Assembly: GCA_015064785.1 (NCBI GenBank)
Contig: SVRM01000030.1
Coordinates: 1 to 39,705 of the forward strand
Reading direction: 5' to 3'
Source: Oscillospiraceae bacterium
Lineage (GTDB): Bacteria > Bacillota > Clostridia > Oscillospirales > CAG-272
Length of the DNA stretch: 39,705 nucleotides
Positions within the stretch are counted from its first letter, which is position 1. Each line of letters starts with the position of its first letter. This document shows positions 27,076 through 39,523 of this stretch, one piece after another. The notes below the pieces were generated by a model, which worked only from the letters and a program-made list of their open reading frames with translations, searched no databases and was not told where the DNA came from. The translations under genes were made by a program, and so were the position numbers.

Positions 27076-28899
27076 ATGAAGCAGATTCCCTTTTATCACA
27101 CCCGATTGAACGGCGCATTCTGGGGAGAAAAACAGCGCATTTCAAAAGAAGTGACCGTCGATGCGGTCTACGACCGTTTTGCGGAAACCAAACGATTTGA
27201 AGCTCTGAAATGCGATGCCGAACAGCAGGCACGCGAAGGCTGGCACACGCACTTTTTCTGGGATTCCGACATTGCAAAATGGATTGAAGGTGCGGCTTAC
27301 ATTCTGGAGCGCGGACGCAATGATGCACTGGAAGCAAAGGTGGATGCCATCATCGACGATATGTGCGCAAATCAGATGGCAGACGGCTATTACAACTGCT
27401 TTTTCAAAATCTACGATACGGAAAAACGCTTCACCATCCGTGACCGGCATGAGCTGTACTGTCTCGGTCATCTGATCGAAGCGGCCATTGCGTATCGCCA
27501 TGCAACCGGCAAGGACAAGCTGCTCTGCATGGTTGAACGCTATGTCGATTATGTCATCCGCGTTTTCACCGTCGAAAAAACCGCAAAGTTTATGACTCCG
27601 GGACACGAGGAAATCGAGCTGGCGCTTGTCAAGCTGTACCGCGCAACCGGAAAGCAGAAGTATCTTGAGCTTGCGAAGTTCTTTGTTGACAAGCGCGGTG
27701 CCAATGCGCTTGACCCCGACGGCTACTGCGGTTTTGCTACGGCACACTACGCACAGGACCATTTGCCCGTCCGCGAGATGACAACAGCAGAAGGTCATTC
27801 CGTGCGTGCCATGTATCTGTATATCGCCATGGCAGATCTGGCACTGGAATGCGGAGATGAAGCACTGTTCCATGCCTGCGAAGCAATTCTCAAAAACGTC
27901 GCCCACAAGCGTATGTATGTCACCGGCGGTATCGGTTCCTCACACATCGGCGAGGCTTTCACCGTCGACTATGACTTAAAGAACGAGCCGGCTTATACAG
28001 AAACCTGCGCGACACTCGCGCTTGCGCTGTTCTGTCAGAGAATGACAAAGATCAAGCCGATGGGCTGGTATGCCGACACGGCAGAGCTTGCCATGTACAA
28101 CGGCTCCATTTCCGGTGTTTCGATGGCGGGTGATGAATTCTTCTACGAAAATCCGCTGGCCATCGACCTTGCCGACCACAACAAGAACCCAGCGACCAAG
28201 GACAAGGAACGCTATCCGATTACCCAGCGTCTCAAGGTCTTCGGCTGCTCCTGCTGCCCGCCCAACATTCTCCGCTTCATCAACGCCATCGGCGATTTCA
28301 TGTATACCGAGGACGGCGACACGCTGTATGTCCATCACTACATGAACGGCGAAACCGAATATGAAGGCAAGACCATCCGTCAGACAACGGCTTATCCTTC
28401 TTGCGGCAAGGTCAAGCTGGAAGTGGACGGCTACAAGAAGCTCGCTGTCCGCGTTCCCGGTTGGTGCACTGCATTTGAAGCATCCGCACCGTATGAAGTG
28501 CGTGACGGTTATGCGTATTTCGATGCAGTCGATGTTCTTGACCTTGATTTCCATATTCAGCCGCGCCTTGTCGTTTCCGCACCCGGGGTTCATGACAATG
28601 CCGGCAGAGTTGCGCTGCTGTACGGTCCCGTTGTTTACTGCATGGAGGGTGTGGACAACAAGGATGATATTTTCGCCCTCTCCATCGACCCGAATACCGC
28701 ATTTACGCTGACACCGGACGAATACTTCGGTATGCCCCGCATCACGGCAGACGGTTATCTGAAGGTCGATTGCGGTCAACTGTATACGGCAATCAATGCT
28801 GTACAGTATGAAAACCGCTGTCTGAACTTTATCCCGTATTACGCCATGGAAAACCGCGGCGAGACCGATATGCAGGTCTGGATTCCGCTAAAGGCCTGA
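27076..28899 (+). CDS. Glycoside hydrolase family 127-like (beta-L-arabinofuranosidase, former DUF1680)
   Basis: HFFWDSDIAKWIEGAAYIL, LYCLGHLIEAAIAYRHATGK, YAQDHLPVREMTTAEGHSVRAMYLYIAMADLA, RMYVTGGIGSSHIGEAFTVDYDLKNEPAYTETCATLAL, CSCCPPNILRF. Confidence 0.93.
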   Translation: MKQIPFYHTRLNGAFWGEKQRISKEVTVDAVYDRFAETKRFEALKCDAEQQAREGWHTHFFWDSDIAKWIEGAAYILERGRNDALEAKVDAIIDDMCANQMADGYYNCFFKIYDTEKRFTIRDRHELYCLGHLIEAAIAYRHATGKDKLLCMVERYVDYVIRVFTVEKTAKFMTPGHEEIELALVKLYRATGKQKYLELAKFFVDKRGANALDPDGYCGFATAHYAQDHLPVREMTTAEGHSVRAMYLYIAMADLALECGDEALFHACEAILKNVAHKRMYVTGGIGSSHIGEAFTVDYDLKNEPAYTETCATLALALFCQRMTKIKPMGWYADTAELAMYNGSISGVSMAGDEFFYENPLAIDLADHNKNPATKDKERYPITQRLKVFGCSCCPPNILRFINAIGDFMYTEDGDTLYVHHYMNGETEYEGKTIRQTTAYPSCGKVKLEVDGYKKLAVRVPGWCTAFEASAPYEVRDGYAYFDAVDVLDLDFHIQPRLVVSAPGVHDNAGRVALLYGPVVYCMEGVDNKDDIFALSIDPNTAFTLTPDEYFGMPRITADGYLKVDCGQLYTAINAVQYENRCLNFIPYYAMENRGETDMQVWIPLKA

Positions 28900-28925
28900 T
28901 CATCGCCATACAGGAGAACCCGATT

Positions 28926-29939
28926 ATGATTCCGTTCAGACACTCCGATGCGCCGCATGTAACGCAGGCGGAAATGCAGGCAATCTATCAGCGCCTCCGT
29001 ACGCCGAACAAGCGCGGCGCCGTCGTCAAGTGGGAAAATGATTACACGGACAGCCCGACGGTATTCTGCCATGAGGGCAGGTTCTATATGTATTTCATCG
29101 CCATTTCCAAGGACACCTCGATATCCGGCTACGAAACGCATCTGTCCGTATCCGATGACCTTGTCCACTGGTCGTATGTCGGTCCGATTTTCCGTCGGAA
29201 CGATCTCAATCGCTGGGACAGCCGTCAGTGTGCAGGATACGCCGCGTTTCTTGATACGCGCTTTGACGGCGGTTATACGCTCGGAAAGCCCGGCGGCTCG
29301 TACTACATTTCTTATCTTGCCGGCAACAGCAACGGCTACGAGCCGGACCCGCTGTACATGGGTCTTGCAAAAAGCACCGACCCGACCGACCCGAACGGGT
29401 TTACCCGTTTCCCCGATCCGATTCTCACCCCGCACGATCATGATACACGTCCCTACGAGGAAAAAACGCTTTACAAAAGCTTTCTTTTTGAGGACACAGA
29501 GGGCGTGACAGGTCACCGTTACGTCAATGCTTACAACGCAAAGGACAAAAACAACAAGGAACGCATCTACCTGGCTGTATCCGACGATGCCGAGCATTGG
29601 GAACGGTACGGTGACCGTGCGGTCATCGACCGCATTACGGATGACCCGGCAGGCATCATCACAGGAGACCCGCAGATTGTCCGCATGGGGGATATCTACA
29701 TCATGCACTACTTCCACTTCCGTGCAGGAGCCGGCGCATACGACACCTTTGCCTGCTCGCGCGACCTTGTGAACTGGACGCTGTGGGATGGGGAGCCGTT
29801 GATTGCACCGACGGAACCCTGGGAAAATGTCCACGCACACAAACCGTGGTGTATCTTCCATAACGGCAAATATTACCACTTCTACTGCGCTGTCAATGAC
29901 AAAAATGAGCGCTTCATTGCGCTGGCTGTTTCAGACTGA
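28926..29939 (+). CDS. GH43-like beta-propeller glycosidase
   Basis: YTDSPTVFCHEGRFYMYFIAI...HLSVSDDLVHWSYVGPIF...GDPQIVRMGDIYIMHYFHFRAGAGAYDTFACSRDLVNWTLWDGEPLI...WENVHAHKPWCIFHNGKYYHFYCAVND. Confidence 0.8.
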   Translation: MIPFRHSDAPHVTQAEMQAIYQRLRTPNKRGAVVKWENDYTDSPTVFCHEGRFYMYFIAISKDTSISGYETHLSVSDDLVHWSYVGPIFRRNDLNRWDSRQCAGYAAFLDTRFDGGYTLGKPGGSYYISYLAGNSNGYEPDPLYMGLAKSTDPTDPNGFTRFPDPILTPHDHDTRPYEEKTLYKSFLFEDTEGVTGHRYVNAYNAKDKNNKERIYLAVSDDAEHWERYGDRAVIDRITDDPAGIITGDPQIVRMGDIYIMHYFHFRAGAGAYDTFACSRDLVNWTLWDGEPLIAPTEPWENVHAHKPWCIFHNGKYYHFYCAVNDKNERFIALAVSD

Positions 29940-29977
29940 CGATCTCCAATATTCTAAAAAAAAGAAAGAGGTATCCC

Positions 29978-31423
29978 ATGAAACTGAATATCATAACTGC
30001 ATTTCTGCTCCTCTGCGCAGCACTGACCGCCTGCGGAGAAGCCGCACAAACCCCCGCTGACACCTCAGCTGTTACCGCTGCTCCCGACATCACGGAAACG
30101 ACCGCCCAGGAAACCGAATTTCTGTATAAAGACGATCTTGGTGACATGACCTTCGGCGGTGCCGAATTCCGCATTCGTACCATCCAAAATGCAAATGTAC
30201 ACAGTTATGTCGATGTGGCGGAGGAATCCGGTGATGTATACGACGATTCTCTGTATAAGCGCAACCGCATCATCGAGGAACGGTTTGATATCGATATTAT
30301 CGAAACCATTGCAGAAGACAAAAGTGCGCCGGTCAGGACACTGATTCAGGCAGGCGACGATGCATTTGATCTCGGCGTTCTCCGCTGTGACGATGCAATG
30401 TATTTCTATACAGACGGTCTGACCTACAGCATTTCGGATATTCCGAATATCGATCTGTCAAAGCCCTATTGGGCCGGTAAGCTCAACGAATCACTGACCA
30501 TCGACGGAAAGCAATACGTTGCAATCGGCGATTATGATATCAATGTGCTCGACCTGACCTATGCGCTGGCATTCAATAAACAGTTGGTAACAGACTTTGA
30601 TATGGAAAGCCCGTATCAGCTGGTTGGCGACGGAAAATGGACAATGGATGCAATGCTGTCCATGATGACAGAGGTTCTCTCCGATATCAACGGTGACGGT
30701 GTCATGGACATCAATGACCGTTGGGGCTTTTTGTCACATTCCAAACAGGTTTCCCCGAACTTCTGGATCGGTGCAGGAGAAATGAGTATTCTCAAGGATG
30801 AAAATGATATTCCATATATCAATATGACAAGCGAGCGCTTTGTCAACGTCTTCGACAAGTTCTATACGATTACATGGGACGCTGAAACATGGTTTTCCAA
30901 GACCAGCGGTGATTACGATGTTCCCACAGATAATATTCAGATTTTCTCTGAGGGCAGATCGATGTTTATGGACGTTTCATTCTTCCATATCAACAATTTG
31001 CGTGATATGGAAACCGATTTCGGTATTCTGCCGTATCCGAAATATGATGAGGCACAGAGTGAGTATTATTCCCGTGTATCCTATTATTGGGCAAATATCA
31101 TCCCGGTTACCAATACCAAGCTGGAAATGACAGGTGCAATTCTGGAAGCACTCAACTGCGAATCTGCAAATTATGTCGTTCCCGCCTATTATGATATCGC
31201 ACTGAAGACCAAATATTCCCGCGATGAAGAATCCGCGGCAATGCTTGATCTGATTTTTGAAAACCGCGTGGTCGACCTCGGTGACACAGTACTGTGCGCT
31301 ACCATCCGTGATGGTTTCATTGCACAGATGTTCAAGAGCAATAATCGCGATATTGCTTCCCAGGTCGCCAAAAAGGAAAAGACAATTCAAAAGTGGTTAG
31401 CAAAAATGCCGATCGATGATTGA
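29978..31423 (+). CDS. Extracellular solute-binding lipoprotein
   Basis: Lipobox CAALTACGE; GDGKWTMDAMLSMMTEVLSDINGDGVMDINDRWGF; related to ORF 7186-8676. Confidence 0.85.
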   Translation: MKLNIITAFLLLCAALTACGEAAQTPADTSAVTAAPDITETTAQETEFLYKDDLGDMTFGGAEFRIRTIQNANVHSYVDVAEESGDVYDDSLYKRNRIIEERFDIDIIETIAEDKSAPVRTLIQAGDDAFDLGVLRCDDAMYFYTDGLTYSISDIPNIDLSKPYWAGKLNESLTIDGKQYVAIGDYDINVLDLTYALAFNKQLVTDFDMESPYQLVGDGKWTMDAMLSMMTEVLSDINGDGVMDINDRWGFLSHSKQVSPNFWIGAGEMSILKDENDIPYINMTSERFVNVFDKFYTITWDAETWFSKTSGDYDVPTDNIQIFSEGRSMFMDVSFFHINNLRDMETDFGILPYPKYDEAQSEYYSRVSYYWANIIPVTNTKLEMTGAILEALNCESANYVVPAYYDIALKTKYSRDEESAAMLDLIFENRVVDLGDTVLCATIRDGFIAQMFKSNNRDIASQVAKKEKTIQKWLAKMPIDD

Positions 31424-36685: not shown

Positions 36686-36727
36686 AAAGCCTCCCGAACT
36701 CCGCTTTGATGCGGTTCGGGAGGCTTT
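36686..36727. terminator. Bidirectional terminator between convergent genes
   Basis: aaagcctcccgaac...gttcgggaggcttt. Confidence 0.85.
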
Positions 36728-36782: not shown

Positions 36783-38882
36783 TCACGCCACTTCGGTGCG
36801 GATGACCGCGAGACTGTGGGGTGGCAGTACAATTTTCACCGTGCCGTTTTCACTGACTGCGGCAAGCGTACTGACAGAAAACTCCGTACCCGGCACAACA
36901 TCGTCGGCGCTGTACAGCTCGGCAGAAAGAACAGCACCGGTGTTGTTCAGACAAAACGTTTTCGGCAGATCGAAGGAACGGTTGAGGAGTGTTGTGGTTA
37001 CCACATCCTGTTTTCTGGTTGAGGTCACATCTTCCTCGAGCGCACAGATCATACCGTTCGCGTGCGCTTTCATGACAGAGAACACCTGGCCTGTGGGCGA
37101 CAGCCGGACACCGTTCGGATAGACCTTGATGGCCCCCTCGTTAACCGATTCAAAGTGGCACGCCATGATTACACCGTACTTATCTGCGTTGCGGAACAGC
37201 ATATTCTGGAACGCAGCCGTCATGATACCCTCGCTGACACTGCCGCACCGGTACCATGCATACCATGCATTCCATTCATCGTAAGAAATCTTAACTTTGC
37301 TGTCCCCAAGCTGTTCACGGAGAATCCGGATGCGGGGCTGGAATTCCGTATCCACCTTGCGAATGAAGCCTTCATACTCTTCCCTGCGCATTTCGGGATC
37401 AATGTATTGCGGGAATCCGGCATAGTGATGCAGAGAAACGACAGATGCAACATCGGCAAGCGCCTGTGCAGAATATTCCGCCCATTCCTGATTGGGATAC
37501 GGACCGGAGGAGCAGATCGTCAGACCGGGCGAAACCACCAGCATCTGTTCAGCATGTTCACGGACAACTTTGGCATAGGCATCCGCTGTATTCGCCCCTT
37601 CCATATGACCGTATCCCATTTCGTTGCCAAGAGACCAGAACTGCACATTGTACGGTTCCGGATGTCCGTTTTCCGCCCTCAGCTTACCGTATGGCGTTGT
37701 TTCATCACCGTTGCAGTATTCCACCCACTGCGCGCTTTCTTCCGGTGTATTCCATGTCGGATTGAGCGTGATGAAGGGTTCTGCGCCAATTTCACGGCAG
37801 AGCGCAATAAAATCATCGGTGTTGATTTCGTGGAAATCGTATCCACTGGAATGCGGCTGTGTTTCCAGCCATTGATAGGATTGCAGAGGAGAACGCATAT
37901 TACGCGGCAGAAGTCCGTCCTTCCAGTGGTATTCTCCCGCAAAGTTGCCGCCGGGCCAGCGAAGCAACTTGATTCCCACTTCCTTGATTTTTTCGATCAC
38001 ATCTACACGCATCCCGCGGAAGTTTTTGGACGGCATCAGAGATATGGCACCGATCATGACAGTACCGATCGAATCAAAGGTGATCTCCAGCCGCGCTTCG
38101 GGGTCTTCCTTCGGAGAATGCAGCGTTACAGCAACCTCACGGTAATCGCCGGACTCTGCCATCAGCGTTTTGCTGTCATACACCGTTTTATCCGAACCGA
38201 TCAGCGAAACAGTGAGCTGATTTCCGGAAAAGGAGCGAACAGCAGCGCAAAAATCGTAATCGGTATCAGCCATCAGATAAAGGTCCTTCTGCCCCATACC
38301 GGTCAGCCCGGCATGATAATTGGTGATGTACTGCGCATTCCGCTCATGATTGCGGCGCATTTTATAGCCATCTCCGTGTCTTGTATATGGAGCGCCGAAC
38401 GCCATAATCGGATTTTCACCGACCGCATACCACTCATGTGCGCATCCGTACCGTCCGGGCTTACTGACAAATTTCCGGTTTCTGAGCATTTCAGCGGAAA
38501 GACCGCTGTAAATACATCCGCGGGTATGCTCAAGATTGTCCCCGAACAGCAGAGACGAAATGGATTGTGCGGATGTATAATCGAGTGTTACCGTTACATC
38601 CTCCGAGGGAGACTTTGGTACATCGATTTCTTTGGGAAGATCCATGGGAAGATTGCTGGAATGGGAGTCATCATGCTGTACACCGTTGACAATATCGGAA
38701 ATACTGCATCGGAACAGCAGTGCCATATTCTTGAGATTTTCGATATCCGGACATGCCAGCCCCCGCTCCCACTTGGAAACAGCTTTATCTGTGACCGAAA
38801 GATACTCACCCAGTGCCTGCTGGGAAAGATTCAGCCGTTTTCGGTTTTCTTTGATAAAGCTGCCTGTTTTCTGCATATTCAT
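36783..38882 (-). CDS. XRE helix-turn-helix domain fused to GH51-like alpha-L-arabinofuranosidase
   Basis: N-terminus FIKENRKRLNLSQQALGEYLSVTDKAVSKWERGLACPDIENLKNMALLFRCSISDIVNG (HTH_3); rest SSLLFGDNLEHTRGCIYSGLSAEMLRNRKF...LLRWPGGNFAGEYHWKDGLLPR...FWSLGNEMGYGHMEG...VKISYDEWNAWYAWY (GH51 motifs). Start chosen at ATG 38882 with SD aaggtg. Confidence 0.92.
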   Translation of the reverse strand: MNMQKTGSFIKENRKRLNLSQQALGEYLSVTDKAVSKWERGLACPDIENLKNMALLFRCSISDIVNGVQHDDSHSSNLPMDLPKEIDVPKSPSEDVTVTLDYTSAQSISSLLFGDNLEHTRGCIYSGLSAEMLRNRKFVSKPGRYGCAHEWYAVGENPIMAFGAPYTRHGDGYKMRRNHERNAQYITNYHAGLTGMGQKDLYLMADTDYDFCAAVRSFSGNQLTVSLIGSDKTVYDSKTLMAESGDYREVAVTLHSPKEDPEARLEITFDSIGTVMIGAISLMPSKNFRGMRVDVIEKIKEVGIKLLRWPGGNFAGEYHWKDGLLPRNMRSPLQSYQWLETQPHSSGYDFHEINTDDFIALCREIGAEPFITLNPTWNTPEESAQWVEYCNGDETTPYGKLRAENGHPEPYNVQFWSLGNEMGYGHMEGANTADAYAKVVREHAEQMLVVSPGLTICSSGPYPNQEWAEYSAQALADVASVVSLHHYAGFPQYIDPEMRREEYEGFIRKVDTEFQPRIRILREQLGDSKVKISYDEWNAWYAWYRCGSVSEGIMTAAFQNMLFRNADKYGVIMACHFESVNEGAIKVYPNGVRLSPTGQVFSVMKAHANGMICALEEDVTSTRKQDVVTTTLLNRSFDLPKTFCLNNTGAVLSAELYSADDVVPGTEFSVSTLAAVSENGTVKIVLPPHSLAVIRTEVA

Positions 38883-38895
38883 AGAAATCACCTTG

Positions 38896-39046: not shown

Positions 39047-39145
39047 TATCATCTCTTTCTTTGTTTTTGTTTGACAGATCCAGCGTGATCGATCAATCAT
39101 CACATGCTGTCAAATCGTGGTACTTCTATTATACCATATAATTCA

Positions 39146-39274
39146 TCAAAATACCACCGACTTCTGGTTTACTTTTACTTTTTTGTGTCGATAAGCAAAG
39201 AAAATCAAGGACATGATATTGTAAATAGCGAATGCAACTGTAAAGACAAAACCAAAGCATTCCCAAAACTTCAT
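39146..39274 (-). CDS. Possible 42-aa single-TM small protein
   Basis: ATG-to-stop reading MKFWECFGFVFTVAFAIYNIMSLIFFAYRHKKVKVNQKSVVF*; agga-like SD upstream. Below the length cut-off of the supplied ORF track. Confidence 0.35.
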   Translation of the reverse strand: MKFWECFGFVFTVAFAIYNIMSLIFFAYRHKKVKVNQKSVVF

Positions 39275-39447: not shown

Positions 39448-39523
39448 CTGGGTGTAGCGCAGTTGGTAGCGCGCTACCTTGGGGTGGTAGAGGCCGCAAG
39501 TTCAAGTCTTGTCACTCAGACCA
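39448..39523 (+). tRNA. tRNA-Pro(GGG), CCA encoded
   Basis: ctgggtgtagcgcagttggtagcgcgctacc-ttggggt-ggtagaggccgcaagttcaagtcttgtcactcagacca; anticodon GGG. Confidence 0.94.

Follow-up and report, generated by a model that had tools for sequence, protein, structure and literature searches.

The window analysed here is the whole stretch of 39,705 nucleotides of contig SVRM01000030.1 from an Oscillospiraceae bacterium of the gut (assembly GCA_015064785.1). Its reverse strand carries a gene for a protein in which an XRE-type helix-turn-helix (HTH) domain is followed by an enzyme domain of glycoside hydrolase family 51 (GH51). The fusion gene stands alone, and its features are collected in Table 1. 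A tRNA gene is located at 39448-39520 (+), directly 5' of the promoter region of the fusion gene. An arabinose-type cluster lies about 7-10 kb from the fusion gene, at 27076-31423 (+), and encodes in a row a GH127 beta-L-arabinofuranosidase, a GH43-like protein and a putative solute-binding lipoprotein.

Table 1. Features of the HTH-GH51 fusion gene and its flanks, in positions of the window (aa, amino acids)
Feature	Position	Strand	Evidence
HTH-GH51 fusion gene, 699 aa plus stop	36783..38882	-	open frame; fused homologues elsewhere
XRE/HTH_3 domain, aa 10-63, recognition helix VTDKAVSKWERG	38694..38855	-	Pfam HTH_3, E 4e-12; five helices, pLDDT mostly >90
Linker, aa 69-97	38592..38678	-	pLDDT 50-56 at about aa 71-90; length varies among fused homologues
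N-terminal beta-sandwich of the GH51 part, about aa 97-284	38031..38594	-	AlphaFold strands; corresponds to the N-terminal region of MgGH51 (6zps)
GH51 catalytic barrel and C-terminal beta domain, about aa 285-699	36786..38030	-	GH51 crystal structures: sequence E 1e-51, profile E 4e-68; Foldseek E about 1e-30
E421, predicted acid/base (GNE motif)	37620..37622	-	invariant in 54 homologues; lines up with the GNE of GH51 enzymes of solved structure
E536, predicted nucleophile (DEW motif)	37275..37277	-	invariant in 54 homologues; lines up with the DEW of GH51 enzymes of solved structure
Predicted operator GTAAACCAGAAGTCGGTGG	39154..39172	-	leave-one-out matrix score 20.8; conserved 5' of fused homologues, absent 5' of HTH-less ones
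Extended -10 box (TATAAT with TGG), at a distance of 20 bp from the operator	39128..39133	-	promoter spacing analysis
Structured leader element between promoter and start codon	38880..39047	-	one of 41 copies in the own genome
Shine-Dalgarno sequence AAGGTGA	38888..38894	-	read from the sequence
Hairpin with perfect 10-bp stem, CCTCCCGAAC...GTTCGGGAGG, likely terminator, between the fusion gene and the convergent gene	36690..36723	.	read from the sequence

The fusion gene and its enzyme half

The frame is uninterrupted from the ATG at 38882, preceded by a good Shine-Dalgarno sequence, to the stop codon at 36783-36785. The earlier note had described one open frame leading from an XRE/HTH_3 domain through a linker into a GH51 enzyme without a signal peptide; the frame, its coordinates and its domains were borne out by Pfam and by the matches to GH51 structures, and no hydrophobic signal sequence was seen at the N-terminus. 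The HTH_3 domain scored 46 bits against the Pfam cut-off of 23 and is a complete five-helix HTH of the Cro/C1 type, which resembles the HTH of the P22 c2 repressor (1adr, E 4e-7). The GH51-type Pfam domains extend from about aa 386 to 690; ASD1_dom was above the Pfam cut-off (E 1e-7), and Alpha-L-AF_C on the C-terminus reached 24 bits, just under its cut-off of 27. The NCBIfam model ArfA matches aa 287-544 (E 2e-42) with 146 bits against an equivalog cut-off of 625, and the protein is therefore not ArfA itself.

In a sequence search the solved GH51 arabinofuranosidases matched aa 283-610 of the fusion protein, and the profile of 54 homologues also matched the GH51 crystal structures (Table 1). 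The full-length structure, which the earlier note had proposed to predict, was modelled with AlphaFold on the alignment of the 54 homologues (mean pLDDT 90.3, pTM 0.84). The predicted architecture comprises, in order, the five HTH helices, a flexible linker, a beta-sandwich, a barrel and a C-terminal beta domain; all 46 of the best solved matches of the model found by Foldseek are GH51 enzymes.

The motifs WSLGNEMG and YDEWNAWY, in which the earlier note had placed both catalytic glutamates, contain E421 and E536, and these align with the GNE and DEW glutamates of the solved enzymes. Eight residues (E118, R308, N313, N420, E421, H485, Y487 and E536), some of which we take to be equivalent to named GH51 residues, are unchanged across all 54 homologues, whether fused or HTH-less. 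The barrel with its C-terminal beta domain, and the catalytic glutamate pair with the sugar-binding residues around it, place the enzyme half in GH51. The fold, the catalytic glutamates and the sugar-binding residues are shared with the GH51 alpha-L-arabinofuranosidases of Thermotoga (3ug4) and Geobacillus (1pz3) and with MgGH51 (6zps); however, no HTH has been described in these enzymes, and their overall identity to the fusion protein is 16-27%. Judged from its sequence, the fusion protein apparently holds a whole GH51-type arabinofuranosidase with an intact-looking active site.

Recurrence of the fusion and a conserved promoter element

A homologue scan covered 85,462 species genomes, and the best 80 loci were taken. 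The full-length fusion is present in 26 of these 80 loci, all from Clostridia (43-83% identity), including two isolates, Anaeromassilibacillus senegalensis An867 and Oscillospiraceae MH27-2; thus the search for this architecture across Clostridia, suggested in the earlier note, had a positive outcome. The own genome also encodes a second fused paralogue with 64% identity (L035). An assembly error joining the HTH to the GH51 part, which the note had named as a possible refutation, is excluded by the 26 independent full-length loci with their two isolates and by this paralogue, and the fusion is genuine. The HTH-less loci among the best 80 are from Bacteroidota, Clostridia, Lentisphaerota, Verrucomicrobiota and Planctomycetota, and many of the Bacteroidota members have, by eye, an apparent signal peptide at the N-terminus.

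The family is sparse: within the order 12 of 396 genomes have a member, which is fused in about half of the cases, and a sample of 388 genomes from the class yielded 2. When presence of the HTH is mapped onto a tree built from the GH51 part, 10 changes are needed, at least 7 of them on well-supported branches; the HTH has therefore been gained or lost repeatedly. HTH-less members sit within fused clades, and in one close relative (L106) the HTH is visibly decayed. A simple motif search for a separate XRE gene within 1.5 kb upstream or just downstream of the HTH-less relatives revealed none, apart from one seemingly spurious match.

Reading of the upstream regions revealed a common element 5' of the fused genes, GTAAACCAACAGTCGATTG or a near variant. 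The predicted operator is an imperfect dyad, GTAAACC-NNN-RGTCGRTTG, centred on the ninth base; at one fused locus (L104) the two halves are perfectly palindromic around the odd centre, AATCGACC-GCA-GGTCGATT. With a leave-one-out matrix the operator was found at 25 of 29 fused genes with scores of 12.4-28.7, the consensus having been drawn by eye from the same gene set beforehand; 99% of shuffled sequences scored below 10.9. None of 48 HTH-less relatives has the operator (top score 7.9), and the fair control among them is the HTH-less Clostridia (about 22 loci), because Bacteroidota promoters differ. One fused gene (L108) has a weaker site with the correct spacing (score 8.4). The operator is missing from L102 and L105, where the recognition helix is rewritten (VDEKDINAWENG and VDEKDVCAWEKG, respectively), and from L106 with its decayed HTH. 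Across six independent pairs on the tree the operator tracks the HTH in five and opposes it in none (p 0.06).

The position of the element in the promoter is also conserved. Of 30 promoters, 24 have 20 bp between operator and -10 box and 29 have 19-21 bp, with a slight bias in this count from ties in the -10 search, which were resolved towards 20 bp. An extended -10 is present in 21 of the 30 operator promoters, and the -35 boxes are frequently poor. At the fusion gene's own promoter the operator is centred about 43 bp upstream of the predicted transcription start. This position, ahead of a -35 box that is often poor, is reminiscent of lambda cI at PRM. The fixed spacing to an often extended -10, together with the poor -35, leans towards activation rather than repression. 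These comparisons give strong support to the dyad as the predicted operator of the fusion HTH.

In the window 290 bp separate the operator from the ATG, owing to a leader element in between. This stretch of 168 bp is one copy of a structured 5' leader element of about 150 nt with several hairpins and 31 consensus pairs, five of which show changes on both sides. The element occurs in 41 copies in the own genome and in 1-50 copies in seven of eight congeners, and is nearly confined to the genus. Of the 20 copies that were read (L230-L249), most reach the start codon of unrelated genes, often ending in GCTTTCGTAAACGAAAGCCATGGTNATNNNNATG. No match to the element was found in Rfam, and a mobile leader, a MITE or a regulatory RNA are the candidates for its identity. 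An 18-bp palindrome just 5' of the Shine-Dalgarno sequence, GCTTTCGTAAACGAAAGC, was rejected as an operator, since the fused homologues lack it in their upstream regions and it forms the final hairpin of this leader element.

The HTH-operator pair at other genes

The operator is a rare sequence. In the own genome, with up to one mismatch, it is found only at the fused genes and in a few chance-like matches. The recognition helix VTDKAVSKWERG occurs in three genes of this genome, namely both GH51 fusions and one further gene in which the XRE domain is joined to an uncharacterised domain, and the operator precedes exactly these three. The third gene (L035:2-1570 (-)) is cut by the contig end and has the operator GTAAACTTTAAGTCGATTG; its partner domain had no Pfam match beyond the HTH and, by eye, looks like an alpha/alpha-toroid glycosidase. 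The HTH-less homologues of this protein (L221-L227, frames of 624-709 aa) are without the operator. Two further XRE-HTH fusions were noticed in the own genome, one to a Gfo/Idh/MocA oxidoreductase (L047:1432-3024 (+), frame of 531 aa) and one to an apparent SAM-dependent methyltransferase, assigned by eye (L048:977-1822 (+)).

The exact operator pattern gave five matches in the 396 genomes of the order and none with the reversed control. Three of the five lie ahead of other XRE genes, which share the recognition helix and are fused to HisKA-REC or to a membrane domain. The HTH and its operator are therefore a module broader than the GH51 fusion family, and the two could travel as one DNA segment. 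Since unrelated partners share the helix and the site, the operator is proof of an HTH-operator pair and not of sensing by GH51. At L217:1560-2453 (+) and L218:252-1157 (-), for example, the XRE-HTH, a HisKA-like stretch and a response-regulator receiver domain are contained in one short protein, and the same operator lies at the promoter.

Putative targets were sought in the relatives, with neighbouring genes assigned by hand reading. The operator precedes a gene for a secreted GH127 (beta-L-arabinofuranosidase) with lectin-like domains in two genomes (L079 and L210). At L211/L091 it is located before an ABC uptake operon directly behind the fusion gene; the L211 operon encodes a DUF3502 solute-binding protein, a permease, a sugar isomerase-like protein and a Gfo/Idh protein. 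Control of the GH127 gene and the ABC operon by the GH51 fusion may be inferred from the site alone. A canonical GH51 gene follows 26 bp behind the fusion gene in L079, and in L207 the operator lies ahead of a sensor kinase gene. A second strong operator (score 23.6) with the correct -10 spacing is found in A. senegalensis (L208, 6357-6375 (-)) near an ABC sugar-uptake operon; no recognisable gene was seen downstream of it when the neighbourhood was read. Some genomes have no strong operator beyond the fused or other XRE genes. Other candidate sites were rejected. The best match by the GH127 and GH43 genes of the window scored 12.9, is within coding sequence and is near chance; the matches in G425 (L209) and G293 (L215) look incidental, the former with no promoter-proximal gene and the latter inside a coding frame.

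A glycosidase as the putative sensor of a regulator

Taken together, the fusion protein is probably an autoregulated one-component regulator that uses a GH51 glycosidase, intact in its active site, as the sensor and governs the use of arabinofuranosides. The same site is present at the promoter of nearly every copy of the fusion, and therefore the enzyme probably senses sugars that contain arabinose and regulates its own gene together with nearby genes for sugar uptake and digestion. The XRE-HTH, probably as a dimer, would bind the dyad at its own promoter, and in some relatives the fusion protein would also bind the promoters of arabinofuranosidase and ABC sugar-uptake genes. An arabinofuranosyl oligosaccharide, the presumed ligand, may occupy the GH51 cleft and alter DNA binding through a putative coupling of cleft and HTH, and its hydrolysis, if the enzyme does catalyse, would reset the switch. 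If the cleft is active, the protein would thus consume its own inducer, and induction would be self-limiting. Both catalysis and ligand-dependent DNA binding by one protein would fit the sequence. The fuller version, in which GH51 is at once the receptor and the hydrolase of the inducer and HTH binding reports ongoing turnover of the substrate, is put forward tentatively, and we lean slightly against it.

The earlier note had proposed that the protein senses arabinosyl oligosaccharides in the cytoplasm, by binding or hydrolysing them, and adjusts transcription. The DNA-binding part of this proposal gained strong comparative support from the co-occurrence of operator and HTH, the fixed promoter position, the absence of the site where the recognition helix is changed, and the putative targets among arabinofuranosidase and sugar-uptake genes. 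The enzyme part is supported by the fold and by the complete conservation of the active site. Arabinosyl oligosaccharides are a candidate signal, and hydrolysis may be part of the switch.

Instead, the protein might simply work as an arabinofuranosidase in the cytoplasm, having acquired an XRE cassette of promoter, operator and HTH that regulates itself; the HTH would then steady the enzyme level and GH51 would sense nothing. The same HTH-operator pair does stand ahead of unrelated partners (the X domain, HisKA-REC and the membrane domain), some genomes have no strong site beyond the fused or other XRE genes, and the catalytic residues are fully conserved, as in a working enzyme. However, the strong sites before the GH127 gene in two genomes and the ABC uptake operon in a third concern genes for arabinose or sugar use, and the repeated, long-kept fusion to one GH51 subfamily suggests coupling; this explanation, although the main alternative, is considered unlikely.

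A comparison with known systems bears on a second alternative. BzdR consists of an HTH-XRE domain fused to a shikimate-kinase-like domain and controls catabolic genes (PMC3602430). As in the fusion protein, a single chain runs from an XRE-HTH at the N-terminus through a linker to an effector domain derived from an enzyme. Its effector is kinase-like and its proposed origin includes loss of enzyme activity (PMC3602430), whereas the glycosidase site of the fusion is intact. The C-terminal domain of the fusion protein is GH51 rather than shikimate-kinase-like, which places it outside the BzdR subfamily. In the NrtR family a Nudix domain is joined to a winged HTH, and its member BtAraR senses free L-arabinose and controls arabinose-use genes (PMC4666351). 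The use of an enzyme-derived domain as a sensor over arabinose-use genes is similar to the role proposed here; but the fold and the HTH type are different, and the catalytic Nudix residues are lost (PMC4666351). In Pfam the fusion protein had no Nudix match and its HTH is of the XRE type, unlike the NrtR/AraR proteins. The GH51 fold might likewise be a pure sensor, which binds arabinofuranosides without turnover as in BtAraR and BzdR, and this is the known fate of other enzyme-derived regulators (PMC4666351, PMC3602430). It is rather improbable for the fusion protein, since the eight active-site residues checked are invariant in fused and HTH-less homologues; BtAraR, by contrast, lost its Nudix signature (PMC4666351).

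A vestigial HTH, or an assembly or annotation artefact in a protein that is merely an enzyme, is hardly credible, although the HTH of L106 is decayed and HTH-less members occur within fused clades, because the HTH is in frame with GH51 in the 26 full-length loci, two isolates among them, of the best 80, and the operator is conserved alongside it.

The proposed regulator with a glycosidase sensor also differs from other known proteins. The lambda/P22-type XRE repressors, such as P22 c2 (1adr), resemble it in the HTH match and, given the predicted operator, in the general arrangement of a dyad near the promoter; however, the fusion is not phage-borne and its C-terminal partner is an enzyme. PutA, BirA and NadR are bifunctional enzyme-regulators that combine catalysis and DNA binding in one polypeptide. 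To our knowledge there is no glycosidase among them, and their enzymes and binding domains differ from those of the fusion. In the literature searched, with subscription papers mostly outside its scope, neither an HTH fused to GH51 nor an enzyme-derived regulator with an intact glycosidase was found. The fusion protein probably belongs with the enzyme-derived one-component regulators, and, as far as found, an apparently working glycosidase as the sensor is new in that literature.

Gut Clostridia have to choose among plant sugars for uptake and digestion, through regulators of which many are still to be described. A glycosidase that also acts as a transcription factor would couple expression directly to whether its own substrate is present and being turned over. 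The predicted operator offers a quick and cheap test, and the protein is carried by two cultured isolates. Should the regulator prove to destroy its own sugar signal, it would be the first glycosidase-based one-component regulator, built from a re-usable HTH-operator module that in Clostridia has also been joined to various other, unrelated enzymes and signalling domains. Where this module recurs, the ligands of the other fused enzymes might be guessed from the partner domain.
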